Assembly (NCBI GenBank): GCA_021234155.1
Contig: JAJEKV010000028.1
Location: 14,188,168 to 14,252,167 of the forward strand
DNA: 64,000 nucleotides
Source of the DNA: Isoetes taiwanensis
Taxonomy: Eukaryota; Streptophyta; Lycopodiopsida; Isoetales; Isoetaceae
Direction of reading: 5' to 3'
The notes below the pieces were generated by a model. That model was not told the origin of the DNA. It did no database searches and saw only the letters and a program-made list of their open reading frames with translations. Within the stretch, counting starts at the first letter, position 1; the number at the start of each line of letters is the position of its first letter. Shown in pieces: positions 4,926-58,661 of this stretch. Made by a program: the position numbers and the translations under genes.

Positions 4926-5079
4926 TAACATGGGTTGGGAAAGCAAGCCCTAGGGCTCACAGTTTCCCCTCCTCACTCTAGCGCCCTCCTCACTCTCTCT
5001 CTAACGCCCTCACTGCCCTTGCATAGAGCCCCCTTGCTTTGCCCCTTTACGGCTTTCTCTCTCTAGGGTTTACAATCTC

Positions 5080-5295
5080 TCTCTAGCCCCAAAACCCCAA
5101 ACCTCCAAAGCGGGCTCGCCTTGCGTCTTTGACTCCCCAAATTGGATTCTAAACACCCTTTTCACGGCCGAGCCCCCCTCAAACTTTGGAAACCCCCAAA
5201 CCCCAAACCCCCAAAGCGTGCTCTGCGCGTTTTGAGTCCCCAAATTGGATTCTAAGCACCCTTTTAGCGACAAGAGACCCTCAAACTTTGGAAGT
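5080..5295 (+). repeat. LINE B 5' UTR tandem repeat, 103 bp x2
   Basis: Two diverged copies, with the CCCCAAATTGGATTCTAA core at 5,135 and 5,238 (period 103), sit directly before the ORF1 start at 5,296. Each is preceded by a C-rich CCCCAAACC stretch. Monomer repeats in a LINE 5' UTR are known as internal promoter units in other LINE families; that role here is inference. Confidence 0.75.
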
Positions 5296-6900
5296 CATGG
5301 CCCACGGAAGATGGGCTAGCACAGGAAACCCAAAGGCGGGGCACGCCATAAGCGGTCCCGTCGGCAATCATGGGCGGGGAGTCATCCTCCATGAAGAAGG
5401 AGGCTTCGGGCTAAGGCTAAAGGCCCCCCCGGCAGCGACCGGCCCGGCCGGAAGGGATTCATTGCTCGGACCACCACGGGGAACTCACCTTTTCGGCGGT
5501 GGAATTGGACCCGCGTCAAAGCGGGCGTGGAGGCTAACGATGCGTATTGAGGCTAACGGTGCAGCAGGCATGGTAGTGGAGATGGAGTCCTCGGCACCCC
5601 ATGTGCTTTCGAAAGGCAACGGTGGTCGAAAGAACCGCATCACAGGTGCGGAACCAGCGCCGAATACGTAGAAGATGGCCTTGGCACGGCACGCCGGCGG
5701 CAGCAGGCCGGCGGGGCTTCGGCCCGACATGCGGGCCGCCCTGAACTTCTGTGTTCATCACTCACGGACACCATGACGGGAGAGGAGGCGGACAATGCAT
5801 GAGGCGATGGTCCGCGGTGTCACCGGCTTCGGTCGAGAAGGTTGAGGCCACCACCACCATGGTGGAAGCGCGATTGCTGCTCTGCGAGCGGCCGGAACGA
5901 CTTTGGGTTCTTGATGCGATCCGGGCAACAAGCCGCGGCTCACGGGCCCGTGTCTTTGGGGCTCGAAACGCGCTCTCGCTACCCGAGCACGGGCTCCGGG
6001 GTTGCGGCGGCCATCCATAGAAGGCGGGGCGGGGTCTCCCCTCACAGGAGTTCATAGTGAGCTGCGGCGGTCTGCAGGCGGGGAGATGTGCTGCGGCCAG
6101 CCGAGCCACACCAGAGCCCCGTACTCCCGGAAACTTCCCGCGGGGCGAGGGGCGGCTCGGTCGCTACCCCACTGCACCCGGCCTCCCCAGCCAGCGGGGA
6201 CCACACCTGCTGCTTGCCCCGCCTCAAGCCACCCGCCATCCGGCCACCACCCGGCCCCCGGCCCGGGCCACAGGCCCTCGCCCACCTTTGACGGGCAGCT
6301 TGAGAACTCAAGAGCACGGTGAGAGACCACAATCACGGTAGTCGGGGCATGCGAGCGGGGAGGGGGAGAGTCTGCGCCCACAACATCCGAACACACACTA
6401 TCTCGATCGGATGACATTCCCAGGCCAGTTCACATTTCTCGAGCAGCCCGCCATGGGGCTAAGCGGCGGGGTTAGATTGGCCGCATTGTCATATTCTTGA
6501 TTTCTTGGATCTTGCAGTCGCGTGATGCCATATTAGCGCCCGGGGGCAAGATCTTTGAAGGGGACATCCCTCTATGTGGACCGGGGACCTCACACCCTTT
6601 AGGAGGGGAGGCCTGTGAGGCGAGGAAGCTTGTCGGGGTCGGGAGGCATTACGCCACCAAGGGGTGCAGCGGGGATTGGTTAGGCGGGATGCACATTATC
6701 CACCACCACCTTTCGCTGCTGCAGAACCCGAACCCCCCAACCCGCTTGGGTGAGCGTGGCCACATTACGCTTCTCCTACCCGCGGCCCTCCCTCTCCCCG
6801 CTACTACTCCACGCTCCCTCCACGACCTATGCCCTCTCGACCACATCTTTGCCTCCGGCTCCATCTACTTCTCACTTTCGGCCTCTGCTTCCCGTCCTCC
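5296..6900 (+). pseudogene. LINE B ORF1 (nucleic-acid-binding, gag-like), broken
   Basis: The first ATG after the 5' UTR repeats, at 5,296, opens a frame that runs to 5,671 and begins MAHGRWASTG. It is rich in Gly, Pro, Ala and Arg. Beyond 5,671 coding-like composition continues in shifting frames to about 6,900, where the endonuclease domain begins. No zinc-knuckle or RRM motif is readable with certainty, so assignment rests on position between the 5' UTR and the endonuclease. The boundary between ORF1 and ORF2 is not resolvable because of frameshifts. Confidence 0.5.
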
Positions 6901-6929
6901 CCAGCGACTTCGAGTGCGCATACCCGCGG

Positions 6930-7790
6930 CTGGCGACAAATAGGAATTGTGCCTCGGGTGGTCTCATGGAATTGTCGAGGCTTCCTTTGGCGAAGGGGGC
7001 CGGTCTCAACTTCGCGTGGCGGCCGATATGGATCTCATCTTTCTCATGGAGACATGCGAGCATCTTTGGCATAGGCTACGATCTGTAGGGTTACCAACAT
7101 TTCTCGGTCTTCAATACATGCGGGGACGGAGGGGTCATGGTGGGGTTGCTTGCTACTACCGGACAACCTTGGCACATTCGGTTACCCTCGAGAAAACAGA
7201 CGCGAACCTGGCCGATACTTGTGGGTTCGTGTGCATAATACCCGATGGCAACCCTCTTTTTACGGCCGCTTTTATTTCCCTCATCGCGAGAGAGCACCTT
7301 CTATCGCAGCCACCCGTCTGGATAGGATGGACCCTTATGTCGATCTATATGATGACATCTCTGGCCCTGAAGCTGTTGGGTAGGAGATCGTCCTTCTTGG
7401 GGATTTCAATGCATGGGCCGGGAATAGAGCAGCCCATGAGACTTGACCCCTCGGCGATGTCCTGCTGGCTTCGTCCCGAAACAACACGGCCCGCGAGGAT
7501 CAGATGGCCCGGCCGGGTCACTTTGGCTTTGGCGGTTGCTCTGCTATGTGGTATTTTGACTTGATAATTTACAGCGGCTGTCCGCGGTGGCCGCTTCTGA
7601 AAGTGCACATGCGAGCGGGGACAATCGGTAGGGGGAGGGTCTAGTGTGGTGGACTATGTGCTGTAGTTGCGCCAAAATATGCATCTCATCGGTCGTTTAG
7701 GGTGGGCACCCGGCGGTCGAGATGAGGAGGTCGACTCGGATCACCTCCCACTTTATTTGGACATGGTTTGGCAAGCGCGGAACCCCCACT
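6930..7790 (+). pseudogene. LINE B ORF2, AP endonuclease domain
   Basis: Endonuclease/exonuclease/phosphatase fold that nicks target DNA for target-primed reverse transcription. Recognisable pieces in order are VSWNCRGF at about 6,960, the LFLMET-type stretch near 7,040, the LGDFNAWAG metal-binding strand near 7,400-7,425, and the SDHLPLYLD histidine motif near 7,735-7,760. They fall in different frames, joined by at least four frameshifts, so the protein is dead. Spacing fits a typical domain of about 230 residues. Confidence 0.85.
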
Positions 7791-8079
7791 ATGCCAGACC
7801 CCTCACCATCCTCGGTTGTGACTAGATTATGGCGGCGGAGAGGGACTACGCCAAGATGCTCATGGATGCCACCGGCAATTCTGCGGACCCCCACTAGAGC
7901 GGCGAATGGAGCCGGTTGACCCGCTATTCGGGGATGCGGCGGGCGGTGCTTTGGCGGACCCCGCATCGCCGCTCGGGGTCAGCAATATTTCCGCGTAACC
8001 AATGGTTTGATCGCGGAGTGTAAACATAAGCACCGGCTCGTCACATTACGGATCCAGTGCTAAACTTGCGGCCACCACC

Positions 8080-9120
8080 ACGATGCAGCGCCCATCGGAA
8101 GGAGACAAAGCGCGGTACCTTATCGAGCATCATGGGGAGATGTTAGACTGGCTTGGACACTCATCCTCGAACCTTTTGGCGCGAGAGTGTTTGAAGGCCA
8201 GCCCAACCTCTGAGGAGACATCACACGGGCGGTGGGAGCGGTACTGCGGCTCTATGACCCACCCGGGGGCCAGCGTCGCCCATACCCCCGGGATGGCCCC
8301 ATTGGTTCTCGCGGAGGAGGATGTTGTGGAGGGCACAGCTTGGTGGCTAATGGGAAGGCGGTGACCTCGATGGTATCTTGGCCGAGGGATTACTCAAATG
8401 GGCGAGGCGGCCGGCAGTGCGATCCTCACTACCCTATTCAGCGAGCATTGCGGGGAGGTTTCCCAGACAATGGACCACAAGCGAGGTTGTCCCCATTCAC
8501 AAGGCGGGCTACCCACCTTTGTCCGACCAATTCAGGACGATCATATGGTCGATTCGGTATTTGCCAAGCGGTTGGTTGGCATTCTCGGCGGCGATTTGAC
8601 CCGTAGGCGGACGGCGGATGTCGAGAGCCCTCACACAAGCGGGCTTTGGACCCGCCACTCAGCGATTGACCATATCTTTACTTTGTAGGCGATTGAAGGC
8701 GGTAGGAACCATCGGCGGGACTTGTATTAGCGCTTTGTGGACTTCGCGAAGGCTTTTGTCGGTCCCGGGGAAAAGCTATGGGCTAGGCTGCGCGTCAGCG
8801 GGGCTGCCGCTGCACATCGCGAGAATGCCATATCTGGTATCTGCGAGTTGTTTTGGCGGGATCGGCCAAGCCAGGCCAAGCATTCACCCGTAGTATCGAG
8901 TCGGGGGCTGCCCCTCTCACCAACACTTTTGGCCTCTACATTGATCGGTTAGAGCCACGGCTTCTGAGCATGGGGGATGGCATCGATTTTGCACCGGGTC
9001 ATCTGCCGGCTCATCTATCTGCGGGCGATGTTGACCTTCGGCCCACACCCGAAGCTATGCGGTCTCATCACGGATGCCCTAGACACATTCTATCGGGCTC
9101 TGGACATGCGGCGTGAATCG
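8080..9120 (+). pseudogene. LINE B ORF2, reverse transcriptase domain
   Basis: Non-LTR reverse transcriptase. Visible blocks: a fingers region near 8,450-8,520 (WTTSEVVPIHKAG), the FVDFAKAF block A near 8,737, a GLPLSPTL block B near 8,905-8,925, FGLYID just after, and a degenerate YADD motif read as AGDVDL near 9,028. Frames change repeatedly. The catalytic YxDD has lost its first aspartate in the current reading. Closest relatives in this window are copies A, C and D. Confidence 0.85.
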
Positions 9121-9453
9121 GCCAAGACCGGGGTGGTTTCATATCCACTTCATGCCACCCCGCGCCTCCTGCACTCACATATCGGGGGGGCCCGACTGTA
9201 GAGTCCACGCCCACCTACAAGTACCTAGGGGTGGAGTTCCCCCTGCAGCTCTGTTGGGGCGTCCATCCGCTTCTTGGTGTGACGGCTGGAAAGGCGCTTT
9301 ATGCCATGCATAACAACGATCACCGGCGAGAGCTCTATGATTGGGGCCATCGGTCACATCACGTTTTGAACCTTTGGTGAGCTGTCATACATGCGGGGTC
9401 GAGGTTTGGGGCCCAATCGTCTCTTTGGCGACTGGAATGACTTGGGCGGTCTT

Positions 9454-10963
9454 TGTGGCGTTCGATGCGATATCACGGTCTCAAGGCGTATACCGTATTG
9501 CCGAATCAGCAGCGTACCGTCATTCAATCAACGCGTGTCTGCCGGCGTGTAGCCAAGCAAGTAGCGCCCTAGGGGCAACTTGCAAGGTGCTTTTACTAAT
9601 GTCGCACTTTAACCATTAACCTTTAAGAGGCATACCAAGGGTCATAGAAACCCTAAACCTAAGCGATAGCCTATGTAAAGCAACCAAACCCTAATTCTTC
9701 CCTTTTTAGTCCCGCGAACCTTCCGAGCTTCAGTTCGCGCGCCTCAAGAGTCAATTCCGACTCCCAAGAACTGCCTGTGCGCTCTAGCTCGTCAGATTCC
9801 CTTTCCGACCGCATCTCCAAGCAAGACAGTGACATGGACGCATTCGGATCAAGAGGAGCAAGCCAAGGACTAGGTATTTCGTCAATTCAATAGTCTAATC
9901 CGCCTTCCGGGCATAGAGTTAGCATGTTTAGCCTATTGAATTGCCCATAACAGCCACATAGGACCCCAGATAGTGAGCCCTAACTAAAGAACATAACTTC
10001 TATGATGTAGATTAGATATTATTCTTTAGTTCTATAATGATGTGATGGATGGATGATCTCTGTGGACTCATTGTATTGGGAAGGGGGTAGAGACCTCTGA
10101 CTTAGTAGTTGATGCTCCTAGCTAGTCCCTTTAGTGCATTACTAGTATTAGGCACTGTGTACAAGAACCACACACAGGTTGTGGGTGAAGGGGCGGGCCC
10201 GGCTCGAGAAGGAGGTTAGGTGTTGACTCTTGAGCGATCCCCACGGTGTGTAATGTCTATCGGGGATCCTTGTGGACTAGGTCTAATGGCTTTGCCCTTT
10301 GAGTGCGGGTAAGGCATGGGCTCGACACCCGTGGGGTGATCGTCACTCTCCGGTGGGTTCAAGTCGAATAAAGGGCGGTGGCTCTCTAGTCACCTTGAGT
10401 CGGCATGGAGATCTCACGGAGGAAGTGATCCCTACCTATCGGGCGGGGAGATGCAACCCGGGGAATAGCCCCTTTGGCTATGCATCCGGCCGACTCTGGT
10501 CGGGTCCCAAATACTCTTCAACCTACTGCGCAAAGTGTGCACGGGGAGGATGGAGTGGACTACCTAAGCCATGTTCTCATGCCCGCCAAATCCATTGCCA
10601 TGAATTACATGCGCAATGAACTCTGGAGACCAAGCCCGTCGGTCATTCCCTTGAGTCGAGCCTTGGGTAGGATTCCCCATGTGATGTCTTGATCTTTGTC
10701 TATCTGCGGATATGTGATGAGCTATCCTTGAGATGGTTATGTGATGTTGATGTTGTATCTTGACATGTATGTTTTAAGCTTCAGCGACTAGGTAGGCCAC
10801 GAGGAAGGCGGGGTAAATGACCCCTTCATTCTTCCCACTTTGGAACTCATCAAGGTTGCCGTGTCGTGGAGGGGCCACATGTCGGGTATGGAGCTGGTAT
10901 GGGGGATGAACTCATGTTTGTATACGGTCGCGGGCCTTATATATATGAGTAAGGGGGCGTCCA
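9454..10963 (+). repeat. Chromovirus 5' LTR
   Basis: Aligns along its whole length with 20,748-22,256. Both copies begin TGTGGCGTTCGATGCG. The left copy ends near CGTCCAC just before the primer binding site, the right near CGTCACA. About 1,510 bp, long for the group. Differences between the two LTRs are mostly small indels at CAG/CTG/CCG sites. Confidence 0.9.
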
Positions 10964-10966
10964 CGG

Positions 10967-10984
10967 TGGTATCGAGCTATGTTC
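10967..10984 (+). promoter_or_regulatory. Primer binding site, tRNA-Met(i) type
   Basis: TGGTATCGAGC starts three bases after the LTR end. It matches the common plant retrotransposon PBS TGGTATCAGAGC with one base missing. Its position fixes the 3' boundary of the left LTR. Confidence 0.75.
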
Positions 10985-11162
10985 TTGGAGACCAAGAGCA
11001 AAGCACGACCATGCTCCCATAGTACTAACTTGATAGGATCCTCAAACCTCGAAAAATGGGAAATGTTTTTCTCATTTTTGTAGTAAATACTAAGTTAGTA
11101 GAGTTAAGAGAATTGGAACATAAAAGATTAAAAATAGTGAGCGAATCCTTCTAAAGCAAGAA

Positions 11163-11226
11163 GGTCTCACCCGCAGCGCCCGGACCAAAACCAAAACTCA
11201 GTTTTGACACGAGCAGCGTGTGAACC
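11163..11226. repeat. Leader palindrome P1
   Basis: Imperfect two-level hairpin: outer arms GGTCTCACCCGCAGCGCC and GAGCAGCGTGTGAACC, inner arms CAAAACT-like and AGTTTTG. First of four copies of the same motif (others at 11,373, 12,973 and 13,173). Confidence 0.7.
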
Positions 11227-11372
11227 ATTGAACCAAAACACCTTAAAAGTTGATGAATTTCAGAAAAAAATAGCGTGCTAATTCGAATTTTAAGCTAATA
11301 ACTAGCGGATTAGTATATTACACTTCTAGAAACATGCTTAGAAAGCATAAAATTTAGCATCAAAATCCATCA

Positions 11373-11440
11373 TGTCTCTGCGTCGGCGCCCGGGAGCAAA
11401 ACCAAGACTCTAGGTTTTGATCACGAGCAACATCAATGAA
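11373..11440. repeat. Leader palindrome P2
   Basis: Second copy, the most decayed in its right outer arm. The inner stem CAAAACC-AAGACTCT-AGGTTTTG is well kept. It lies about 170 bp before the TATA box of the first leader cassette. Confidence 0.65.
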
Positions 11441-11541
11441 CCATAAGAATAGAAAATTCTAAATTAAGCCCATGTAATAGGTTAATAAGTGTCTTGGCTC
11501 ACCTAAAAAGAGTAGTTTGAAATTTGACCTAAAATGGCATC

Positions 11542-11549
11542 TATAAATA
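11542..11549 (+). promoter_or_regulatory. TATA box of leader cassette A
   Basis: TATAAATA lies 106 bp before the ATG of the histone-fold ORF. Downstream sequence (TCTGCTC...GGCGATTTT) matches the region after the second TATA box at 13,434. Promoter function is inference from motif and duplication. Confidence 0.55.
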
Positions 11550-11647
11550 GATCTAGATCCCCCTCATTTCCGTTTCCTCTTTAGAAATCTGCTCCCGCTC
11601 CCTAAAGGGCGATTTTGGCCCCGGACATCGGATCGAGGCCGTCAAAC

Positions 11648-12838
11648 ATGGCGGGGCGAAACAAAGCGCTAGAGTTCCTCCACGGAGACACAACCCCGGC
11701 CCTACTCCGGGGAGATACTTGAGGCGGCTCTTTCCGCAGAGAAGACCAACCTTCATCTAGCGAAGGAGCAGTCAGGAGCGTCCAGAGCAACCCACCTACC
11801 AAGAGGGATGAGGCAGTCGAGGAGGGCGCACACTCCGTCTCGAGCGAGAAGTCCTCGACAGCGAGGAAGGAGGCGTATCTGAGAAGGTCTTGAAGAGATG
11901 GAGGAGGAAGGAGATAGAAGGAGGAGCAAGATCGGGTGGTCGAGCAAAATGAAGAAACGAGGAGGGCCCGGCCTTCGAACCGGCTAAAGAAGAAAGAACT
12001 AGCGGCGTGGATCAAGAGACATGAAGCCAAAGAAGCATCATCGAGAGGAAGAGAAGAGGAGGAGGAGGAGGGCTGAAGGCGTAGGAAGAAGAAAAGAAGA
12101 AAGGAAGTTAGTTGGAGGTAGGCAGAGGAAACTCAAAGAAAGCCCCACGAACCAAGGTAGTTATCAAGAACAGCCGGCGGACAAGCCCCCATCCTCCTCG
12201 GATGACTTCGGAAGATGAGGATTTTAACCCCCATGATAAAAGCGAGGTCCTTGAAGGATCCGATCAATGGCGAGGCGTGCCGACCGGGCAGCCGAAAGGC
12301 GGTAGAGAAGCCCCACCATACCCGGCGTGGGATAGAAACAAAGCACAGGCGGCCCAGCGGCGTATGTGATAGACCCCATCAAGGTCACGAGAGGAAGATG
12401 AGGGAACAGGGCGTATATGAAGAAGTGGGAGGATTACAACTCCTATTACCGGCAAAGCGAGTAAGGACTATTGAAGGGGACATCAGAACCGAGAAGAAGC
12501 GGACTCTCGGGGCCACCACCGGAAAAAGCCCAAGCCTCCTAGACCACCAGCCAAAAGAAGCCCGCAGAAAGGAGGCGAGAGGAAAGCAACGTGAGAAATT
12601 AGGCATTTTCAACTAGCGCGCCGGGTTCCTAATACCCGTGCACCGTTCGCCCGATTAGTTAGGGAAGTGATGCGAGGAGTTTAACAGGGATGAGGTAGCG
12701 GATGAAATGTTGCTGGCGTTACGAGGCGGTAGAGCAAAAGATAGTCAACGACGCCGAAGATTCTACAGCCTGCACAGTACATGCTAAACGAGTCACGCTA
12801 ATGAAGAAGGATATGCACTTGCCCAGTATAATTAAGGT
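11648..12838 (+). pseudogene. Chromovirus extra ORF A: charged tail plus histone H3 fold
   Basis: A coding-like unit from ATG 11,648 (MAGRNKALEFLHG) to about 12,838, with several frameshifts. The first 300 or so codons are very rich in Lys, Arg and Glu (for example 12,021-12,110) with coiled-coil-like stretches, then a Ser/Pro/Asp part. The C-terminus, 12,588-12,838, is a histone H3 core: REIRHFQ (αN) at 12,594, APFARLVREVM (α1) at 12,640, EFNRDEVADEMLLALR (loop 1 and α2) at 12,677, then AVEQKIVNDAEDSTACTVHA and KRVTLMKKDMHL (α2-loop 2-α3). In the last 33 residues 17 match canonical H3 with no gap. VTLMKKD is closer to centromeric H3 (VTLMRKD) than to VTIMPKD, but loop 1 has canonical length. 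There is one in-frame stop before REIR and two frame changes in the fold. Confidence 0.8.
12588..12838 (+). pseudogene. Histone H3 fold domain within ORF A
   Basis: Domain-level entry for the H3 core. Segments are read in three frames: 12,594-12,676 (αN, α1), 12,677-12,722 (loop 1, start of α2), and 12,724-12,838 (rest of α2, loop 2, α3). Each junction needs only a one- or two-base correction. The alignment to H3 is essentially gapless from REIR to the α3 leucine. The usual ARRIRGERA end is replaced by PSIIKVH and then unrelated residues. There is no intron, and the sequence is continuous with the preceding charged region, so it reads as the C-terminus of an element-encoded protein rather than a separate host gene. 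A nested histone retrocopy is the main alternative. Confidence 0.8.
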
Positions 12839-12972
12839 ACATGATGAAAATTTTGTTAATATAAAGAGTTTTTGAATAAATGATAGGAGTAATCTTACTT
12901 AATTAAGCTGAGTTAACAAGTGCCAGCTTTTGTTTTAGTAAAATCAGACATTTTAGACCAATTTAAGAGGAT

Positions 12973-13039
12973 GTCTCACACGTTGCGCCATGACCAAGAC
13001 CAAGACTCCAGGTTTTGAGCTGGGCGCAACGTGTGAGAC
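12973..13039. repeat. Leader palindrome P3 (perfect 17 bp arms)
   Basis: Arms GTCTCACACGTTGCGCC at 12,973-12,989 and its exact complement at 13,023-13,039 enclose an inner partial stem. It is the best preserved of the four copies and opens the second leader cassette. Confidence 0.85.
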
Positions 13040-13172
13040 CATGTCCAAATTAGCCCAAAACACCTCCAAATTGGCCCAAACAAGGGGTCAATTACGCTTC
13101 TTTCGATGAGTCTAGCGAGGATTAGACCCTTATATCACCAAATTGGACAAGTTTAACCAAAATAGAGTTGAT

Positions 13173-13242
13173 GTCTCACCGCGTCGGCGCCGGGGAGCAA
13201 AACCAAGACTCCCGGTTTTGATGCGGGCGCAACGTGTGAGAC
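13173..13242. repeat. Leader palindrome P4
   Basis: Fourth copy, 200 bp after P3. Its right arm is identical to that of P3 (GGCGCAACGTGTGAGAC) and it has the inner stem CAAAACC/GGTTTTG. The P3-P4 spacing matches that of P1-P2 (about 210 bp), so the pair was duplicated as a unit. Confidence 0.8.
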
Positions 13243-13433
13243 CTCCTAGCATTTCCTCCACCATGCCATATCCAATTGACCTTCAGTCTGTTGCAATAGG
13301 TTCATTAGCTAGTCCTGTATGCTCAAACCCCAAAAGTAGCTTTCAAAACCTCATTTGGACCTCTTAATAGGTCAGAATTGCCCAGCTCCAATAAATTTCT
13401 AGGTCACCCAAAAATTAGAGTTTTTCCCTTCTC

Positions 13434-13441
13434 TATAAATA
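13434..13441 (+). promoter_or_regulatory. TATA box of leader cassette B
   Basis: TATAAATA 121 bp before the ATG of ORF B. Its context parallels the TATA box at 11,542, including the downstream TCTGCTC and GGCGATTTT blocks. Confidence 0.55.
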
Positions 13442-13554
13442 GGCTCCCATTTCTCACTTGGCACCCTACAAGTCTGCTCTCGACCCTTTAGGCGATTTTC
13501 TAGCTCCCAGAGGCGCTTCTACATCCGTCTGTTACTCCCAACTTTCCTAGAGCA

Positions 13555-15033
13555 ATGGCAACTGCTGACTTCAGGCGATGGCAGTGCTCATGCTGCCGAG
13601 GCTGATGTCAATGACATTTTCCGAGTTTTCCGGAAAGAAATAGATGTCCAAGACACTCTGCACGCAACTCCAGCATATAGACAAGTTTTGACAGAGTTCC
13701 AAGCTAGGGTAGGACCGTCCTTAGTGCAGCTCCCCCCTTGTACAGGCTACTTTGTCCCCAGGCAATCCCTTCAAGCAGCCTTGGGTGATGTTCCAAACAT
13801 TGCCAAGTACCTGACCAACAAGGCCCAGAGGTTGCCAGACTACATGGTCCTGACAGTCGACTGGACCAAGTATTTTCTCTACCGCCGCCTTAGCGATCTT
13901 CTTTTCCACCGTCTTTGAAAATCAATGGGGAAACCTTTATCCCTTCCATGGAGGTGGACCCCATAGCATCCTCGGCCCGGCCCTTCTCTGATGCCCGGCC
14001 GGGAGCAAGAAGGAAGGGGCAGAAGAAGAGGAAGAGTACATGGGCTCGACCAGCAGAGAAGAAACGGCGGCTAGCGGAAGAAGAGTTACCCAACCCGGCC
14101 GGCCAGCGGACCCTGAGTCGCTCCCCCACTTTCGGGCTAGGTATCACAAGCCTAGCCCCCATCATCGATGGCCGAGGAGTACACGCTCCTCGGTGACATC
14201 AAAACCTCCACGAATGCGGGGAGAAAGCTCCGACCGGCGAGTTCTTTGCATCAACTGCGGCAGCAACAGATCTAGATGATTTCATCGTCCGGGGAGTCTC
14301 GAAATTCCCGCTTCAAGTGAAGAAAGCCGACACCTATCTGGGAGAGTCGACTTGGGACCTCAAACCAACGGCAACATCGGGCAAATAATGGAAGCCCGGG
14401 AGCGCCATCGAGGAGGAGTTCTATGCCATCCAAGAGCGGATGGGGATCCATGGCAAGACCACGAGCATTTTGATGCCGAGCTCTTTCGATACCAGCTCCC
14501 ACAGACAGAAGAGGAGGAATCGACATCAGGCGAGTTTCATCCGACAATCGGGGATTCTGAAATCAGCGAAGTTGAGGGTCGATGAATCTGTAGGAAGACA
14601 TAAAGCTGGCGGCGAGGCGGCGAGTCATCAACGGCCGCACAATGGCGGTCGGTGAGGTACTACCTCCCCTGGCTGGCGGATGGGAGAATAAGCGGTAATA
14701 CCGCATAAATTCAGCCCGAGGGGCGAAGAAGGAGTGTTCATGCTCATTGCACTCTCTGGCTTTGGCATGCATGCTCGGTTGGCTGCAAACATCGACTATG
14801 CCGTCTTAGTCAAGAGAGCGATGACACTCGACATCTTCGACTTCGCAGTGCCCCACCGACGGCAGGGAAGATTAGCAGTAACCGCGGCCTACACCTCCGA
14901 CCGCAGGGTAGAGGAATTGGTGACAGCTTTGCAGGGCAGGTCATCAACAAATATCCTCAGGAACTTGGGGCCTTCGGCCCAAGTTAAGTTCCTTGAAGAT
15001 AACCCATCCCTACTAAAGCGATTTCAAGAATAG
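13555..15033 (+). pseudogene. Chromovirus extra ORF B, unrecognised protein
   Basis: Coding-like unit of roughly 480 codons from ATG 13,555 to a stop at 15,031-15,033, with a handful of frameshifts. From the N-terminus: a segment of about 110 residues with DIFRVFRKEID and LTNKAQRLPDYMVLTVDW (13,590-13,918); a basic, nuclear-localisation-like stretch with GQKKRKSTW and EKKRRLAEEE (about 14,015-14,090); a region with DDFIVRGVSKFPLQVKKAD and FYAIQERMGIHGKTT (14,277-14,470); and a C-terminal part (14,734-15,033) with TLDIFDFAV and ending DNPSLLKRFQE. I do not recognise any domain. It precedes gag, has its own TATA-like cassette and follows the H3-fold ORF. The KR-rich stretch would suit a nuclear protein; that is inference. 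Confidence 0.55.
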
Positions 15034-15339
15034 TTAGACTCTTGATCCGGAGGCTTTGTATTAAAGATATTATATAATATAAATATAATTTCTTTTGCAC
15101 TTTAAATGTTTTGTTGACATATTTTGTGCCACAATTATACCAACAAACACATAATGCAACAGAACAAATGAATCTAACCGTAAGGCTATGGTCAACTGTG
15201 TATGCAGCTAGGGAACAAAAAAACGGTCGAACAAAGCGGGGAGAACCAGCGAGAGATGGAGAAACCCGGACATGCAACCAATTGCAAGGAACCTATTCCG
15301 AAGAATCTGACCCTCTAACTCTGAAGAAGAAATGTAAAA

Positions 15340-16330
15340 ATGAAATGGGCTTCAACAAATAAAAAGCTACGCTGGCGGTTCAAAGCATCGGTCGGGCATA
15401 AACAACACCTCGAAAAGTCGGGGAAAGATAAGAAGAGGGTAAGAAAGGAAGTCTCCTACCTACGGATACCTCCATTCGAGCTGGGTCTCGGACTCACGAG
15501 TCAGAAAGAAAATGAACAGTGCAAGACCCTAGAGATGGCGAGAGAGAGACACTAAGGCCTTAGACTATCGGAAGAAGGTAGGCTTCGGCATTGGGAAATG
15601 TATGGAAAGCGAGGAAGCTTGAACAATTCTCGGCGAGAACAGGTCAGGCTTGGAAGCGAGCGTGGCTTTCGATGAGATGAGTGAGTATGGCAACACCTAT
15701 GAGATGAAAGACAAGAACAAAAGCGGGGTAGCAGCCAACTGAAGGGGCGGCTCGCATCACGGTGGAAGGGTTATGCAAGGCCCATGGGTTAAGCGAGGCA
15801 GTCGCGTTTTAAAAAGTTTGTTAAAAGCTTTCAAAAGCGCCATTATGTCCCAAGAAACACAAGTCCAACATGATCTGGCGGTTCTGATTGCGGCAAGGCT
15901 ACAAATTGGTCGAAAATATCTGAAAAGAATTCATGAGACTAAGGCTTTATGTGCGAAAGTTGAGTGAAAAACAACGATGGAAACTACATTGAAGGATTGA
16001 GCGAGGAGATCCGTAAGCTTGTAAAACCATAGACCCCAAAGCGGTATCAAAAGCGAGAATCCAAGGCAATAAGTTTGCAAGGAGCGGGGCCTCGAGCAGT
16101 GGCGGCGAAGCGGCAATATTACCGGGGATAAAGGCAAGGCAACGAGGGAGTTATAGCCCTAGAGCGGCCCGGCCCAAGTCGGCTAAATCCCATATAGTGG
16201 CAACCGGGAAGCGGCGGGGAGAGGAAGCGAGGTGTCCTTGAGGGGACAAGCGGGGAAAGGGTCGAACTACTCAAAAGCGGTCGCGGTCCTTCTTACAAGC
16301 AATGCCCAGAAGAAGAGATAGAAGTGCATA
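15340..16330 (+). pseudogene. gag: Chromovirus gag, degenerate
   Basis: Gag-like peptides in changing frames before the protease: FKKFVKSFQKRHYVPRNT near 15,812-15,865, GLSEEIRKLVKP near 15,995-16,030, and a Lys/Arg-rich C-terminal part near 16,080-16,260. The pattern resembles the plant chromovirus capsid region, in which a YxPRN-type motif is followed by GLxxEIR. The CCHC knuckle expected near 16,270-16,330 is not readable. Assignment rests on these motifs and on position upstream of the protease. Confidence 0.65.
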
Positions 16331-16479
16331 GAAAGCGGCTTTGCTTGGATGCTTCAACCGAACCCACGGGGCGACGAAGCGCCCCCGTTAAGTCATGGCC
16401 TTGGTCCCGTGGAGTTAGGTGGATGGGACACTCCGTCGGCGATGGGCGAGGCGGCAGCGACTACATTCGGGGTGAGTGT

Positions 16480-16640
16480 CATATTTTTATTTGCCATAGA
16501 TCTGAACAAGCGAAAAACCGGTATAAGGTAATTTCCACGGTAGGGAAGGCCAAGGCCAAGTCTTTCATAGTCTGATAGACTTCGGGGAAGTAGCCACAAC
16601 TTTGCATCCCCAAGAATGGTTAATATGTTGAAGTTGAAAC
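16480..16640 (+). pseudogene. Chromovirus aspartic protease remnant
   Basis: A short stretch reads as TVGKAKAKSFIV followed by LIDFGEVATTLHPQEWL, corresponding to the LIDSGATxNFI active-site region of Ty3/gypsy proteases. The catalytic DSG appears as DFG in the present sequence, and the flanking frame is broken. Identification is by position between gag and RT plus this motif. Confidence 0.55.
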
Positions 16641-17179
16641 CATTGAAGTCAAGCGAGGGCGTAATCTTAGCAAGTGGAGCGATAAGACATCTGGCCGGGC
16701 AAGGATAAACCGACATCGACTTGCGAGAATTAATATCCGATGGGGGCGGAAGTAATGGGCATCGGCAAAATGCGACTTGATAATAGGAATGGAGTATCTT
16801 GGACCAGCGGGGGCCATCATAGATTGTGGAAGCGGAAGGTGACCCTCCTAGCGCCCGGCGGCAAAATCATTGAGATCACGGGTAAAAAGAAGTTGCTCCC
16901 ATCATGCAATGTATGTCTATTAAAGAAGCTGCTCGAGTCTATCGGGAGGCGAGCAAGTAGCATATGTCTTCAAGCTTGAGATTGAAGAACACGAGTCGGA
17001 AGGAAAGCAAAGAAGACAAGGTGCTCAACAAGTTGCCCAAGCAAATAGCTAAGTTGATCACCCGGTTCCACGATCTCTTCCCGGATGAGATCGGCGACTC
17101 CCTCACTTAGGGGGGTCAGTGTGAGATAGCTTTTCGAACCGAGAAACCAAGCCGATGAGCAAGGCTCCGTGCGGAATGG

Positions 17180-17810
17180 CGACCGCGAGGCCCGGCCGGA
17201 CTAAAAAGCAATTGCGAGGAGTTGCTCGACCTAGGCTTCATTAGACCTAGCGTCTCACCATCCCATTCTCTTTGTCAAGAAGAAGGATGGCGGCTTGAGG
17301 ATGTGCATAGATTACAGGCGGTGAATAAGCCGCGGCATCAAAAATAATACTGCGCTCCCCGGTCAGGATGACTTGATGGATCAACTCCAAGGGGCAAAAG
17401 TCTTCTCCAAGATTGACCTAAAGGTCGGTTATCATCAGATCGGGATAAAGGAAGAAGACATCCACAAAATGGCCTTGGGACCGGTATGGGCATTACGAGT
17501 TTTGCGGTAATGCCATTTGGGTTATCAAATGCCCGACAGCGTTCATGAGACTTATGAGCGACATCTTGAGGGCGTTCTTGGACACCTTACGTGATAGTGT
17601 TCTTTGATGACATCCTAATGTATAGAGATCCCTTGAAGAGCATATACAACCGCGTAAGGAGGGTGCTTTCGAAAGTTGAGAAGGCACGGTTATGCGCCAA
17701 GTTGTCGAAGTGCCGCCATAGCGAGAAATGGGAATACACGGGTCATGTAATTTCAGCTTTAAGGAATCTCGGCGGATCCGCCAAGATTGAGCGGTGATTC
17801 AATGGCGGCC
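17180..17810 (+). pseudogene. Chromovirus reverse transcriptase
   Basis: Ty3/gypsy RT in several frames: LLDLGFIRPSVSP near 17,223-17,255, KKDGGLRMCIDYR near 17,280-17,320, [14 protein letters not shown] near 17,377-17,420 (catalytic block A aspartate), [14 protein letters not shown] just after, PFGL near 17,515, and a YxDD block read as VFFDDILMY at 17,597-17,623. At least six frameshifts of 1-8 bases separate the blocks. The second catalytic site (FFDD) is intact. Confidence 0.9.
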
Positions 17811-17899
17811 ACCGAAGAAGCGTCCGCGAGGTCGAAGTTTTCTTGGCCTAGCGGTACTCTGGGAAGTTTGTGAAAAAAGCCGCCAAAGATAGCAGCCCA

Positions 17900-18370
17900 C
17901 TAACGACTTGGACGAAGAAAAGGTGAAAAATTGGGCAGATCATTGGCTCAAAAAGCCCAAAGCGAGGGTTTGAATTGTTGAAGGAAGCTTTGACAACCGC
18001 ACCCATCTTGACCACTCCGGACCGAAGAAAACAAGTTAGTAGCGGCGGGCGCCGTAAGTAAAGATAGCCACAGTGCGGTGCTCATGCGGGAAAAGGCGGG
18101 TAATAACATCACGATTCGGAAGATGAATAGCCTTGCAGCGTTACCCGGCCGACCAAAATTACTTGCCTTGTCGGGCGTTGAGAATTTGGAGGCACTACCT
18201 CTTGGGAAGGAAGTTCGGTTGGATCTGGATCATGAGCCTCAATATGTATTCATGCAACCACACCTTAACACGGAGACGAAAGGTGGATGGAGTTCCTCGA
18301 AGAGTATGACTTTGATATAGTCTACAAGCCGGGAAGCTCAATGTGGTAGCAGATGCACTTTCAAGGCATC
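17900..18370 (+). pseudogene. Chromovirus RNase H
   Basis: Follows RT directly. Readable pieces include the DHEPQYVFMQPHLN stretch near 18,225-18,265 (TDHEPL motif of LTR-element RNase H) and EEYDFD near 18,298, followed by a KPGKLNVVADALSRHP-type end near 18,325-18,372. That last motif is a strong marker of Ty3/gypsy elements. Broken by frameshifts. Confidence 0.85.
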
Positions 18371-18589
18371 CAACGACAACTAGAGTGCATTGCAATGCAA
18401 TTTCGGCGCTCTCCAGCGATTTCGGGGAAAGAAGATTGAAGAAACCTTGCCCAGCGGATGTGGACTTCAAGGAAGTATGGGCAAGCTTGTGCAAGGAAGC
18501 AAGAACGGATAAGGAGAGGAAACCTTCAAAAAATTTTAAGAAGGAAGGTAATCTTCTCTACTATAAGAACAAAGGCTGTGCGTGCTGAA

Positions 18590-19909
18590 TCATCGGTGAG
18601 GAAGTTGATCCTCCACGACACCCACAGCACCTAATAGCTGGCCACGCAGATTCATGAAGGCATATTTCAAAGTCTTGTGGCTATTATTATTGGCCGGGGA
18701 ATGAAAAGCGGTGGCTCGCCACATCAAGGAATGTCGGCTATGCCCGCAGACGAAAGCGAAGCGGCTTCGAATTCGAGGGCATTGGAACCATTAGCGGTGC
18801 CAAACGCTAAGTGGGGAGGTTGTCGGCATGGACTTCATAACCGGGCTTCAAGGGCGGTAAGAGGAAGGATGCCTTGATGGTCGTGGTCGACAAGTTGTCG
18901 AAGATGGACCCGCGGACCGCGACTATGGACCGCGGCGAAGCTCTTCACCAAAAGAAATCTTCGAGCTCCATGGCATGCCAAGGGAAATCATCTCCGACCG
19001 AGATCCGAAGTTCATCGATTGCCTTTTGGCGGGACCTCTTTGCAATGATTGACGAAGCTATCCATGAAACACGACCTACCACCCTCAGACGGATGAGCAA
19101 GCGGGCGGACCAACGAGAATATTGGAGGATATGCTTTCGAAACTATATGCGGAACAAGCAAGATATGTGGGAAAGAGTTTATTCACTTGGTGGAGTTTGC
19201 ATATAATAGCACCAAGCAGGAATCATCCCAAATGTCGCCGTTCATGATTAATTACGGCTACCAATGCCTAACTCCAGATACTTGGCACAACCCCGTGTCA
19301 AAAGTAGAAGTTTCGCAGCAAATGTTGGGCGATATGCAGCAGCTCGTGGAAGAAGTTCGAGGATATCTCCTTGCAGCAAGAAGTCGACAAAAGAGCATCG
19401 CCGATAAACATCGGACAGTCAGAGAGTTCCAAGTTGGAGATAATGTATGGCTCAAGATCAAAGTCAAGCAGGTGAAGCTCCGCATCAGAAATTGTAAGAA
19501 GCTTGCTCCAAGGTGGGCTGGACCCTTCAGAATAATCCAAAGAGTAGGTAACCAATCCTACAAGTTAGACTTGCCAGCACACTTAAAGATCCACAAAGTC
19601 TTCCACGTGAGTTTGCTGAAAAAGCACACTCCCAACCCAGATGAAGTCTTGGACACTCCAACGTTGTTAGAAATGACAGAGGAGCAGATAGAAATAGTTC
19701 CAGAACTAATTCTTGATAAAGCATTCAAGAAAACAAGGAGATCGGAGTTTCTCCAATATTTGGTCAAGTGGAAACACTTGCCCGTGGAAGACGCGACATG
19801 GGTACTTAAGAGGGATCTAATAAAGCAGTACCCACAGTTTATGGAGCAATGGGATGGCAAGGTCATCTCCGAAGAAATCAGCTCAGGCATGTCGATTTGT
19901 GTAGATTAA
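18590..19909 (+). pseudogene. Chromovirus integrase and C-terminal chromodomain
   Basis: The integrase core is broken (MVVVDKLSKM near 18,874, FWRDLFAMID near 19,026, LRNYMRNKQDMW near 19,130), but from 19,187 to 19,909 a 240-codon frame is open: VEFAYNS, a GPY/F-type module (DNVWLKIK, APRWAGPFRI near 19,508), KIHKVFHVSLLK, then a chromodomain at about 19,695-19,870 with FLQYLVKWKHLPVEDATW. Chromodomains of this class bind methylated H3 tails and direct integration to heterochromatin; that is family knowledge. The mixture of an eroded core and an open chromodomain is notable. It ends at TAA 19,907-19,909. Confidence 0.92.
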
Positions 19910-20735
19910 TGTCTTGTATAGTTAAGAATAATCTACGCATGCAACCTATGTTGGATATGGGTTGCATGCGTTGTTACCGATGATGAGACCACTACGGTGA
20001 TCTCTAGGATGTGGTGTAATGTCAAGGTAGGCATGACCGGGTTCCGCTTGGAAAGTCTACTTCTGTCCCACGGAAGTAGACGACCTCGAGAGATAAGAGG
20101 CCATTCAGGAATGCATTGATAGGAAAAGCACCTATAGTCAATGCCTCTGAGGGGAGGACCCTATCCTTCCGCCCCATATCTGTGAAGGACCCTATCCTCC
20201 ATCTTTGGGCAACTAAAGGTGTAGGCATGAGCGCCATATAGGCATTATAAGGCGCTGTCTCCACGATCACGATGGAAGAAGCATCCTCTTCCTACGCCGG
20301 AAGATTAGCCATTTATGTAGATAGTAGGGGTGGTTCCCTTATAACCAAATTTATAAATAATTAAAGTGGTACTAATGTAGTGTCGACCGCTTGCGGGCCA
20401 ATAGAAGCTCAGGAGGGCAAGGAGGTTAGAACTCACGAACTTACAACACAAATTTTGTTGGAATGTGTTGCAAGGAATGAAGAAATACCTCAAAGAATAA
20501 TTGTATATATTAAATTATTGATAAACTAAAATAATGACTAACTTGTTGTAATGGCGTGCAATTGATAAGTTATTTGATTGAATAATGGTGTAATAATGTT
20601 CTAAAAATATTACCTTAAAGGTAATCTAATAAATGTGTAAGGATGATAATAGTATATTGTATGCATCAAGTTGATTGCGGGTTAGGAAGATCCCAAGGTG
20701 GGGAGGCCGGCGATCTTTGCGGACAACATCATTTT
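19910..20735 (+). other. Chromovirus 3' untranslated region
   Basis: About 830 bp between the integrase stop and the polypurine tract, with no coding signal. AT content rises towards 20,500-20,640. Nothing else recognisable. Confidence 0.6.
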
Positions 20736-20747
20736 AAGGTGGGAGAA
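20736..20747 (+). promoter_or_regulatory. Polypurine tract
   Basis: AAGGTGGGAGAA immediately precedes the TGTGGCG start of the right LTR, the expected position of the plus-strand primer. Confidence 0.8.
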
Positions 20748-22256
20748 TGTGGCGTTCGATGCGATATCACGGTCTCAAGGCGTATACCGTCTTGCACCAT
20801 CAGCATTACCGCCATTCCAATCGACATGTATGCGCAGAAGCGTGTAGCCAAGCAAGTAAGCCCTAGGGGGCAACTTGCAAGGAGTGCTTGCTACACTTAT
20901 TAATAATGTCACTTTAGACCATTAACCTTTAAGAGGCATACCAAGGGTCATAGAAACCCTAAACCTAATTAACCTAAACCCTAATTCTTCCCTTTTAGGT
21001 CCACGAACCTTCGAGCTCAGGTTAAGCGCCTCAAGCTCGTCAATTCCGACTCCCAAGAGGCTGCCCGTCTTTTTAGCTTAGCTCGTCAGATTCCCTTTCC
21101 GACCGTATCTCTAAGCAAGACAGTGACATGGACACATTCGGATCAAGAGGAGCAAGCCAAGGACCATGTATTTCGTCAATTCAATAGCCTAATCCGCCTT
21201 CCGGGCATAGAGTTAGCATGTTTAGCCTATTGAATTGCCCATAACAGCCACATAGAATCCCAGATAGCGAGCCCTAACTAAAGAACATAACTTCTATGAT
21301 GTAGATTAGATATTATTCTTTAGTTCTATAATGATGTGATGGATGGATGATCTCTGTGGACTCATTGTATTGGGAAGGGGGGTAGAGACCTATAGCTTAG
21401 TAGTTGATGCTCCTAGCTAGTCCCTTTAGTGCATTACTAGTATTCGGCCTGTGTACAAGAACCACACCTGGTTGTGGGTGAAGGGGCGACGGCTCTCGAA
21501 GGAGGTTAGGTGTTCGACTCTTGAGCGATCCCTACGGTGTGTAAAGTCTCTGGGGATCACTTTGGGACTAGGTCTAATGGCTTGCCATTGAGTGCGGGGT
21601 AAGGCATGGGCTCGACACCCGTGGGGTGATCGTCACTCTCCGGTGGGTTCAAGTCCCGAATAAGGGCGGTGGCTCTCTAGTCACCTTGAGTCGGCATGGA
21701 GATCTCACGGAGGGAGTGATCCTACGCCCCATCGGGCTGGGGAGATGCAACCCAGGAATAGCCTCTTTGGCTATGCATCCGTGGGACTCTGATCAGGTCC
21801 CAAATACTCTTCAACCTACTATGCAAAGTGTGCATAGGAGGGGGCGGATGGATGGACTACCTAAGCCATGTTCTCATGCCGGCCAAATCCATTGCCATGA
21901 ATTACATGCGCAATGAACTCTGGGAGACCCAAGGCATCGGTCATTCCCTTGATGCCTGAGCCTTGGGTAGGATTCCCCATGTGATGTCTTGATCTTTGTC
22001 TATCTTGGATATGTGATGAGCCATCCTTGAGATGGTTATGTGATGTTGATGTTGTATACTGACATGTATGTTTACGCTTCCGCAGCTAGGTAGGCCCTGA
22101 GGAAGACAGGGTAAATGACCCCTTCATTCTTCCCACTAGAACTCATCAAGGTTGCAGTGATACGTGGAGGGCCCTGTATCAGTATGGAGCTGGTATGGGG
22201 GATGAACTCCTGTTTGTATACGGTGCGGGCACCGTATATGAGTAGGGGACGTCACA
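20748..22256 (+). repeat. Chromovirus 3' LTR
   Basis: Direct repeat of 9,454-10,963, 1,509 bp, TG...CA ends. Followed at once by the rest of LINE copy B, so the boundary is precise to a few bases. Confidence 0.9.
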
Positions 22257-23250
22257 GGTGCAGAAGGCATTTTTGGCACGGGCACTTGGGGTGAAACCTT
22301 CAGTCCCCTATCAGATTCTGCTGCAGGAAACTGGATTCTTGCCGCTTCAGCGGGCAGTCCTTGATAGACACATCGTCTATTTTAAGAAAGTGGTTAACAT
22401 GGGTGATGCTCGGCTCCCGCACCTGGCTTACGCTGTGGCAATGGGCCCGCAGTGGCTCAGGGCCTGTTGGAGGGGTAAGAGAGATCAGTGGTTCGGCCGG
22501 ATGGAGCGTGCGAGAACCTGCAGTGCGTCGCGAGTGGACCAGAGGAGGCCGATCGTGACAGCTGGCGCTTGCTTCCTTGGCAAGCTCGGGACCCCGACGC
22601 TCTAGAGCGGTCAAAATGGCCCATTACAAGGAGCACATCAACCCGCGTGTTAGCGGGGCCCTTGACTCTACTGCGTTCCCGGTACCCTTCCGAAAAAGCG
22701 GACTCATTGCCTCCATTCGCATAGGTGCCCACCATCTTCGCATCGAGACGGGTAGGTGGATTGGAGAGCCCCGCCAGGACAGGCTCTGTCAGTGCTGTCA
22801 AATGGGTGCCATTGAGGATGAGTCTCACACTTTCCAGAGTTGCCCGGCGAGTCGAGATCTGGGCGGATCACGCTCCCTTTTAATGCGGCCCACTTGCCCC
22901 TACATTTGCTGATGAACACACACCGCAAGTCGATGCGTGCTGGGGGTCATACATTGGGAGGTACTAGATCTGCGAGCTCACCTTTGCCCCCGGCTACCGC
23001 TGATCAGGCACTACGGGTGTGGTGCATGAGTGTATATATCTGTGTGTTTTTGCATTTTGTATATTAGAACAGTTTGTCGGCCGGGCTGATTCTTTGCCCG
23101 CGGTTTTCCCCTCGAAAACCCTTGAGGCGGGGGTTTTTAATCCGGGATAGTAATCCGCTTCTTTAGCGCTTTTTGTATTGGGTCCTATAGACCGATTGGT
23201 CTCCGTGAACAATAAAAATACCTTCCTTCCTTCCTTCCTTCCTTCCTTTA
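22257..23250 (+). mobile_element. LINE copy B, 3' part with (CCTT)n tail
   Basis: Continuation of LINE B ORF2. A long frame at 22,258-22,605 (QKAFLARALGVKPSVPY, then LQETGFLPLQRAVLDRHIVY) covers the connection domain. 22,577-22,912 contains MAHYKEHINPRVSG and a zinc-knuckle-like end, CQCCQMGAIEDESHTFQSCP, as in many plant LINEs. The element ends with a self-complementary segment at 23,183-23,213, a short A-rich run and a (CCTT)n tract at 23,217-23,249. Confidence 0.88.
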
Positions 23251-39995: not shown

Positions 39996-40392
39996 AGATA
40001 ACAATACATGGTTTATGCAAAAAAGTGGTGTTTTTTCCCTTCTCCTACATGTGGCTATTTCTTTAGTCTTTTATTTATAGTGTTGATATTAAGTGGTCCA
40101 CATGTATAAATGCTTAAACCTACATCTGTTATTTTGAAGACAAACAACACCTAGAACCTCATAAAACCACATTACATAAAAACAACACGTGGATAAAAAG
40201 TAGCAAAAAACAATAGTCAAGAAAAAAGACATGTTAGAAAAAAAAAATATTTGCGCCAATTTTCCACGTGTAGACCTTTTCTTCCAAAAAAACCACTGTC
40301 CCTTTGTGCAAATCCGGATAAACGGGCCATGTGGTCTTTTAGGACCATTTTGGTGTTGTTTTTGGCATAAAACAACACTTCCGTACAACAAA

Positions 40393-40432
40393 AAAACAAC
40401 TGTGGACCAAAAATCGGGGTCAGTGTGTACCC
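40393..40432 (-). repeat. Internal inverted copy of the left subterminal region
   Basis: TGTGGACCAAAAATCGGGGT at 40,402 is the near-exact complement of 33,233-33,260 (CCCCGGTTTTTGGTCCACTG). A GT-rich stretch inside it also matches the complement of the segment that follows on the left side. It may mark the right end of an older, shorter element that ended near 40.4 kb. Confidence 0.65.
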
Positions 40433-40880
40433 TTTGGTACCAAATGCCACCTCTGCGCCACCCCACAGTCCCCCCTGAACGCGCACCAGGTGTCGCGACT
40501 TCGTGGGCCGAGAGGCCATGGATCCCGAGCCATACAGCCAGTCATCCGCACATGGGAACCCCCGAACATGCCCATTCCGAGGCATGATTCAATGCCGGGG
40601 GCTGGAATTCGCGTGCAAATTCCAGCCACAATGCATGCAGATGAGATGAGCAATTAGTGTGATTCGAAGGAACAAGAAATTCATCACTTGTCCGGGCAGC
40701 CCGCTTGTTACTCAACTCGATCCCTCTGCCGTCCGAAGGGAGACCAATGGTGTCCACTAGAGCTCGACTGGATCGATGCTACAACGCCAGCAAAGCAGAG
40801 GGTCGGAACGCCCAAAGAAGCGAAGTTTCAAGGCCTAGAACAAAGAAGAAGCCTCCTCGACTAGCGGATCGGGTTCTACA

Positions 40881-43435: not shown

Positions 43436-43765
43436 TTTGAGCTACAAAAGATCTTGCTTAAGGAGGATGACTCCACATGTCTTGTTAAGCAAGCAAACAT
43501 GTTTTGTTTATGTCTCGCAAGCAAATGGACATAAATTGCTACATTAAATACATGAACACAAACTCTTTTGGGATTTCCACTAGAAAATTACATTTCATTT
43601 GAAGTGTCGGGCAAATACATGGTTGCATGCAAATATTTGCATTCACAAAACACTAAACGAAAATGGCACCATGCCTGTTTCAAAATACAGCAAAACAAAA
43701 ACTAAAAAAAAACATAGGCCTATAAGGTTCGTCCAGTGTGTCAAGGTTCACCAGCAGGCTTGTGC

Positions 43766-44101: not shown

Positions 44102-44287
44102 ATTGTGCAGATCAGAAAAAGAAAGGTTAGATAGACTGAAACCCTGCACAACTAGATGGACTGTAACCCAGAATAGAGATCACCTTGACGACGGAGTTGA
44201 TCGGAGCTTGACGACGGATTCGGCCGGGAGTCGAGAACTGAGGGAAATCAGCTGCTGGGATGACCATAGAATGCAAGGCCAACACTT

Positions 44288-50840: not shown

Positions 50841-50861
50841 ATTCATCTTGGCATCAAAGCT

Positions 50862-54390: not shown

Positions 54391-54394
54391 ATAA

Positions 54395-55168: not shown

Positions 55169-55174
55169 AGCATA

Positions 55175-58660: not shown

Positions 58661-58661
58661 T

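Follow-up and report, generated by a model that had tools for sequence, protein, structure and literature searches.

The question raised by this locus is whether an LTR retrotransposon can carry a histone H3 as a gene of its own. The window, that is, the whole stretch of 64,000 nucleotides analysed (positions 14188168-14252167 of contig JAJEKV010000028.1 of Isoetes taiwanensis), contains a chromodomain Ty3/gypsy element bounded by long terminal repeats (LTRs). The original prediction, made from the letters of the window, placed an H3-like gene (H3L) between the primer binding site (PBS) and gag of this element. This position was confirmed and was found to be common to the lineage: H3L was shown to be a standing gene of an abundant chromodomain Ty3/gypsy lineage in I. 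taiwanensis. The genome-wide searches covered 1,658,258,908 bases in 1,110 contigs.

In the window, H3L starts with an ATG at 11648 and continues as a long charged region, and its C-terminus, an H3 core, is spread across three frames (Table 1); the copy is broken, as had been stated. The predicted match of this C-terminus to the H3 core was borne out, and Pfam Histone was found on two of the three pieces. Taken alone, the alpha2/alpha3 piece scored 26.0 bits, slightly below the cut-off of 26.4, and the loop 1/alpha2 piece gave no Pfam histone match. A recount by hand of the identities to canonical H3 gave the same 17 of the last 33 residues. When the C-terminal piece was compared with solved structures, H3-type chains were matched with E values of 2.4e-5 to 1.4e-4 among the best 60 of 173 matches. 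A 120-aa read-through of the window core, searched against 5.8 billion proteins, gave 91 candidates; 74 of them reached E<=1e-3 (best 2.8e-10), and all 74 carried Pfam Histone. Other element copies scored far above the same Pfam cut-off (148.7 bits for L022 and 85.5 bits for L050, of classes A and W described below). Chance resemblance to H3 was ruled out by the Pfam, profile and protein matches.

A genome-wide search with the histone profile yielded 8,704 first-look candidates and a query with the window subclass 7,400; these counts are not confirmed copies, and the two sets may overlap. The best 150 of the former were scored, and all exceeded the cut-off. They included 15 host H3 genes, each starting with MARTKQTARKS. 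An open frame of at least 400 aa was present in 36 of the 135 non-host rows; 15 of these 135 (L016-L030) were fetched and translated, and all proved to be H3L, the other 120 being judged from the search table only. From the window-subclass query, 150 candidates were likewise scored, with a top identity of 76%. A control query with H4 gave only 69 candidates and 43 matches. Therefore, the amplification was not one of core histones generally, and general histone gene amplification was ruled out.

Linkage of H3L to the retrotransposon was examined from the side of reverse transcriptase (RT). An RT query gave 28,725 candidates, of which 150 were scored; every seventh row, from row 4 to row 137, was taken (20 elements), and 3.7-6.3 kb upstream was read. 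An H3L match (E<=1e-3) was found upstream in 17 of these 20 elements, including three that a motif scan had missed (L067, the weakest, L072 and L077); within the stretch read, L081-L083 gave none. When 150 H3L positions of the window subclass were matched with 142 integrase-chromodomain positions, 10 pairs lay on the same strand and in the right order, at distances of 6.7-8.7 kb, compared with one pair in the wrong order and one on the wrong strand. Since other copies of the family carry H3L, a one-off nested retrocopy, one of the two outcomes that had been named as refuting the prediction, was ruled out; the other, a lack of significant histone-fold matches in profile searches, did not occur either.

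The structure of the element was established on other copies. L033 and L034, which are adjacent in the genome, have TG...CA LTRs that are 93.7% identical (Kimura two-parameter distance, K2P, 0.058), an AAAGT target duplication on both sides and, in L033, a PBS of the initiator methionine tRNA (iMet) type (TGGTATCAGAGC, 12/12). Inside, the order is H3L (a 485-aa frame), open reading frames (ORFs) B and C, a gag-protease region, RT, an integrase zinc domain and a chromodomain, with gag and pol frames partly broken. The gag-protease region is 77% identical at the DNA level to that of L031, in which gag is a separate ORF with Pfam capsid, protease and zinc-knuckle matches; H3L as gag was therefore ruled out. 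Past this region, the match between L031 and L034 spans only 220 positions, and no second LTR of L031 was found within the stretch fetched. Thus, LTRs, target duplication and iMet PBS were all seen in L033/L034, and the chromovirus order gag, protease, RT, integrase and chromodomain was pieced together from three copies, no single one being shown intact: Pfam recognised gag and protease in L031, L034 supplied RT and the integrase zinc domain, and the chromodomain was identified by Pfam for the window copy and by eye for L034. Outside the element, L034 contains an open 459-aa frame (8597-9976) that, by eye, presumably resembles a PIF/Harbinger-type transposase.

The H3L proteins fall into four subclasses (A, B, C and W), of which W is that of the window. 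From the ATG, they are 410-459 aa long in L031, L033 and L075 and 416 aa in L050. Classes A, B and C align along their whole length, with 46-90% identity to the first row; they consist of an N-terminal domain of no recognised family, a linker with a tail remnant, and a core that shares 80-89% identity with Arabidopsis H3.3. Class W has H3 residues 1-8, a charged insert (about 320 aa in L050) replacing the remaining tail, and a normal-length H3 core. Across H3 positions 47-135, the 43 element copies aligned without an internal gap; two rows, one each of A and W, stop early, and one W row overruns. The alphaN helix, loop 1 length and the residues C110, H113, R116 and D123 are of the H3 type. Class W keeps R69, R72, R83, C110, H113, K115, R116, D123 and L126 in at least 26 of 27 rows.

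The core of H3L is held by selection. The ratio of nonsynonymous to synonymous substitution (dN/dS, NG86) in the core was 0.041 for class A (13 copies) and 0.050 for class W (27 copies), and 0.237 (6 copies) and 0.222 (12 copies), respectively, in the rest of the ORF. Mean pairwise core dS was 0.69 in class A and 0.90 in class W, and single pairs reached about 3. L037, L046 and L063, which had no anchor, were left out of the core alignment and of dN/dS, and L019, L021, L031 and L033 also of the class A estimate. Because the copies had been chosen by protein similarity (class W by the window protein, classes A and B by the Pfam profile), which lowers dN, the core test was repeated on copies picked by RT. 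Seven copies passed the intact-core filter, 10 of the 17 RT-sampled H3L copies having failed it (L076 has an open core and was dropped for the anchor; L079 is cut at the end of the stretch). Saturation of dS affected 16 of their 21 pairs, and the four pairs with dS <1 gave core dN/dS of 0.018-0.067. The comparison across copies that the original prediction had proposed thus revealed a constrained core.

Outside the core, the tail is altered. The exact H3 N-terminus MARTKQTAR was found in 14 of 30 class W loci and with at most two changes in 24; in six, the motif found no tail start. The nine codons were represented by 19 distinct DNA sequences, and therefore the likeness of the tail is not a matter of recent identity. 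Over 24 rows, pN/pS of the tail codons A1-R8 was 0.11. Lysine at the K4 place was present in 24 of 24 rows, as the motif demanded; the K9 place was occupied by V (22 rows) or I (two rows) and never by K. In class A, the stretch before the core, approximately T-K-H-P-S-T-G-G-K-S, corresponds to H3 residues 6-14 with proline at K9. Proline stood at this place in all 18 class A-C rows in which the motif was found; in 13 of 31 rows the motif was missing, some rows being truncated and the motif being too strict for others. Hence, K at the K9 place was observed in no H3L row where the place could be read, and no H3L had a recognisable K27 region. At the K36 place, R was found in class A (16/16) and class C (3/3). 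ARKS, the usual context of K9 and K27, occurred in none of the 30 class W frames; ARKT was seen by eye in L078. The starts of classes A (MPRFKLTVD), B (METPKQVYK) and C (MANTKSAPD) also have K at position 4. No H3L had a complete H3 tail with K4, K9, K14, K27 and K36, only residues 1-8 (class W) or about 6-14 (classes A-C) being recognisable. Therefore, H3L is an H3-like fusion and not a canonical H3.

Class W H3L has a promoter-like signal of its own. A TATAAAT or TATATAT box was located 100-123 bp before the ATG in 22 of 24 copies, compared with 4.9% of random places in the window, and the block from -120 to -100 that holds it was 93% conserved, comparable to the first codons.

Taken together, H3L is possibly, at somewhat below an even chance, an H3 variant supplied by the element, a nucleosome subunit that resists silencing marks. 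H3L would be produced, from a promoter of its own in class W, would pair with host H4 and would enter nucleosomes on the element's own chromatin or on new copies; production, pairing and entry are what we infer from the sequence. In such nucleosomes, K9 would be missing from its place and no K27 region could be recognised, so that the marks of transposon silencing could not be set in the usual way and the element would stay transcribable. That H3L replaces host H3 on element chromatin and so blocks heterochromatin at the element's own copies, as a counter-defence at the level of the nucleosome, would be a somewhat more doubtful proposal. Escape from silencing suggests itself as the most economical reading, in which the core must stay H3 and the tail has lost the K9 site.

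Several observations weigh against it. The class W core equals H3.3 in length but shares only 53% identity with it, and R63, R128 and R129 are lost. The K36 place is K in four of five class B rows, so resistance to marks would not be general for K36. ARKS was found upstream of the core, in the linker, in two of 31 class A-C rows (L075 and L080); together with the ARKT of L078, it may imitate the marked tail from a displaced position. Classes A-C keep no H3 1-8 tail, and the K4-like starts are a post hoc match, judged on one copy per class, with a joint chance probability of about 2e-4 to 3e-4. Constraint on the tail codons of class W did not exceed that on their neighbours (0.276 versus 0.247 in the same 16 rows), a TATA box at the class W distance was found before none of 10 class A-C starts (nine copies), and K9 may be missing merely because the fusion junction fell there.

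Other functions can be proposed for the same protein. H3L could compact element cDNA or RNA, either together with H4 or alone, or it could exploit H3 chaperones and import factors to carry the pre-integration complex to chromatin. This packaging or delivery role, which we consider unlikely, would fit the regular position of H3L by gag-pol within the same element, the DNA-contact arginines R69, R72, R83 and R116 retained in the core, the long N-terminal extensions, which could link H3L to particles, and the presence in L031 of a separate gag ORF with capsid, protease and zinc-knuckle matches. However, the whole core is conserved and not the basic residues alone, including C110, H113 and D123, which we take to be residues of the H3-H3' interface, and the TATA box of class W suggests expression separate from gag-pol. 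Conservation of the entire core likewise exceeds the needs of a tail mimic, which counts against a further and improbable role of H3L, that of a decoy or poison which would sequester H4, H3 chaperones or readers of the H3K4 tail across the genome and thereby indirectly relax silencing; the exact K4 tail kept in 14 of 30 class W loci and the high dose that numerous candidate copies could supply speak for such a role, but a global poison should presumably burden the host.

Captured cargo that spreads by hitchhiking, with no present function, is a very improbable explanation. Transposons do carry pieces of host genes, and a Pyrenophora hAT transposon carries an H3-like gene, according to the portion of that report available (PMC3538342); the failure of 10 of the 17 RT-sampled copies in the intact-core test also speaks for cargo. 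This explanation is nevertheless largely refuted by the pattern of substitution, with core dN/dS of 0.02-0.07 at the mean pairwise dS values given above and no internal gap in 43 copies.

The original prediction had further proposed a coupling in which the element supplies an H3-like protein and reads H3 with its chromodomain. The integrase does end in a chromodomain (Table 1), but the self-reading was not supported. In the window and L034, the chromodomain contains ...VKWKHL..., and of the cage residues Y24, W45 and Y48 only W45 was present by eye. It is thus of the CHD_II type and lacks the aromatic cage of CHD_I. In the available part of the literature on CHD_II chromodomains, Y24 is absent and Y48 usually so, and an interacting factor was not found (PMC3350952). 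Because two of the three cage aromatics are gone and H3L has no K at the K9 place, the coupling is unlikely in its classical form.

A likeness to centromeric H3 (CENH3) had also been claimed. The VTLMKKD motif is real and is accompanied in class W by APFxRLVRE, and among the best protein matches of the class W core several bear the name CENH3; this holds, however, only for the window's subclass, whose loop 1 disfavours plain CENH3. By eye, loop 1 has the canonical H3 length, as predicted, and is one residue shorter than in the CENH3-like proteins P0001 and P0002; class W further differs from CENH3 in its long insert and in its location in a mobile element. In the H3/CENH3 tree, class W formed a long branch near the CENH3/H3 divide and was not securely placed. 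It is rather unlikely that related elements captured H3 twice at one and the same place, one capture (of H3 or a CENH3-like gene) giving class W and the other classes A-C. This long branch and the lack of similarity between the N-terminal regions of classes W and A (in shallow profiles) would agree with two captures; a single clade of all element H3Ls, however, was not rejected (p-AU, the approximately unbiased test, 0.281), ORF B is common to W and A, though weakly (best E 1.7e-5), and all four classes have K at position 4, a post hoc observation. A two-capture origin is compatible with every proposed function of H3L.

The remaining features of the window element are given in Table 1. Its LTRs are 87.5% identical (K2P 0.118). 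A PBS-like TGGTATCGAGC adjoins the 5' LTR, and the corresponding site of L033 is the intact one described above. In an ungapped scan of the window, the top PBS score was only 7/12 and lay at another site; the site by the LTR also scores 7 ungapped by hand, because one base is missing there. The density of GCGG/CCGC was 10.1 per kb in the element (10969-20747), 18.0 at 4000-9000 and 1.85 at 40000-60000. Pooling 30 sister loci gave 4.0 per kb and pooling 20 RT-sampled loci 6.9, and L031, L033 and L034 ranged from 3.7 to 5.8. Therefore, part of the frame damage may be poor assembly consensus and not decay; such density may reflect consensus error in repeats, the assembly having been built from nanopore reads according to the available text of the genome report (PMC8566536). 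A hairpin-like cassette is duplicated in the window, one copy ahead of each extra ORF (H3L and ORF B), with a palindrome at 12951-13060; it is perhaps a regulatory unit. ORF B, which like H3L lies between PBS and gag, is the second additional gene; it is common to the subclasses and has no Pfam family; its window pieces had no Pfam match, and the similarity between W and A noted above is that of the L031 ORF B (6087-6962). ORF C is a third, small acidic ORF ahead of gag (L031 7468-7845; L033 7767-8147), with no Pfam family over the cut-off.

Table 1. Features of the H3L-carrying element in the window (positions within the 64,000 nucleotides).
Feature	Position	Strand	Basis or remark
5' LTR	9454..10968	+	begins TGTGGCG...; self-BLAST partner of 20748-22260; exact start common to both
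PBS, iMet type, altered (TGGTATCGAGCT)	10967..10978	+	read from sequence
Leader cassette 1, hairpin-like repeats	11159..11431	+	64% identity with 12968-13233
TATA box of H3L	11542..11548	+	106 bp ahead of H3L ATG
H3L, class W, frames broken	11648..12838	+	Pfam, structure and protein matches; sisters L035-L064
H3 N-terminal tail remnant (MARTKQTARVPP in sisters; damaged in window)	11648..11683	+	7/12 residues, best frame starting 11647
H3 core, alphaN/alpha1 piece, first frame	12595..12681	+	Pfam Histone E=0.0065
H3 core, loop 1/alpha2 piece, second frame	12671..12784	+	resembles sister copies by eye
H3 core, alpha2/alpha3 piece, third frame	12702..12872	+	Pfam Histone E=1.2e-5; overruns end expected from sisters
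Leader cassette 2	12968..13233	+	64% identity with 11159-11431
TATA-like box of ORF B	13434..13440	+	121 bp ahead of ORF B ATG
ORF B, no recognised family, broken	13555..15033	+	relatives at the corresponding site of sister and class A elements
RT piece	17325..17507	+	RVT_1 E=9.8e-4, under curated cut-off
Integrase C-terminus and chromodomain, open 270 aa	19097..19906	+	SH3_Tf2-1 4.7e-23, Chromo 8.5e-10
3' LTR	20748..22260	+	self-BLAST partner of 9454-10968

Standard CHD_II chromoviruses have, to our knowledge, no histone ORF. Those of plants share with the Isoetes element LTRs, iMet PBS, gag, protease, RT, integrase and a chromodomain without Y24 and Y48, and differ in that the available sections of their description do not mention a histone ORF ahead of gag (PMC3350952). 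As far as the available part of the report goes, hAT transposons of Pyrenophora tritici-repentis carry an H3-like ORF, with 26 very similar H3-like genes (PMC3538342). They are likewise mobile elements that have multiplied an H3-like ORF in a genome, but they are DNA transposons with terminal inverted repeats and a recent expansion, whereas the Isoetes element is an LTR retrotransposon with RT, and its H3L is a fusion protein of an old and diverse lineage (pairwise dS to about 3) with a changed K9 place. VANC proteins of VANDAL elements, as described in the available passages, are transposon-encoded, sequence-specific and counter host silencing (PMC10398659, PMC5735166); H3L may work like them in anti-silencing, a likeness of proposed function and not of sequence, and would act as a nucleosome subunit. 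Two large contigs of a virus collection (L085 and L086; IMG/VR, 106 and 132 kb), candidate large DNA viruses, code for a relative of H3 that shares 41-42% identity with the class W core. Giant viruses encode histones.

In the open-access literature, the search not extending to subscription papers and preprints, we found no description of a histone encoded by an LTR retrotransposon, of an LTR-retrotransposon lineage with a standing, selected H3, or of an H3 that retains its K4 end while its K9 place is changed. The word "histone" occurs 0 times in the main text, as available, of the I. taiwanensis (PMC8566536) and I. sinensis (PMC10541799) genome papers and of a 2026 review on the capture of genes by plant transposons (PMC13317346). 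Transposon-carried H3-like genes are already known from the fungal hAT.

H3 has thus already been shown to be a standing gene of a retroelement lineage. If the proposed function is true, a mobile element would contest silencing by means of a histone and not by an enzyme or a DNA-binding factor. Natural, long-selected, multi-copy H3 variants with a changed K9 would then be a probe of the effect of H3K9 methylation on transposons, and likewise a means of asking how much of H3 a nucleosome needs.
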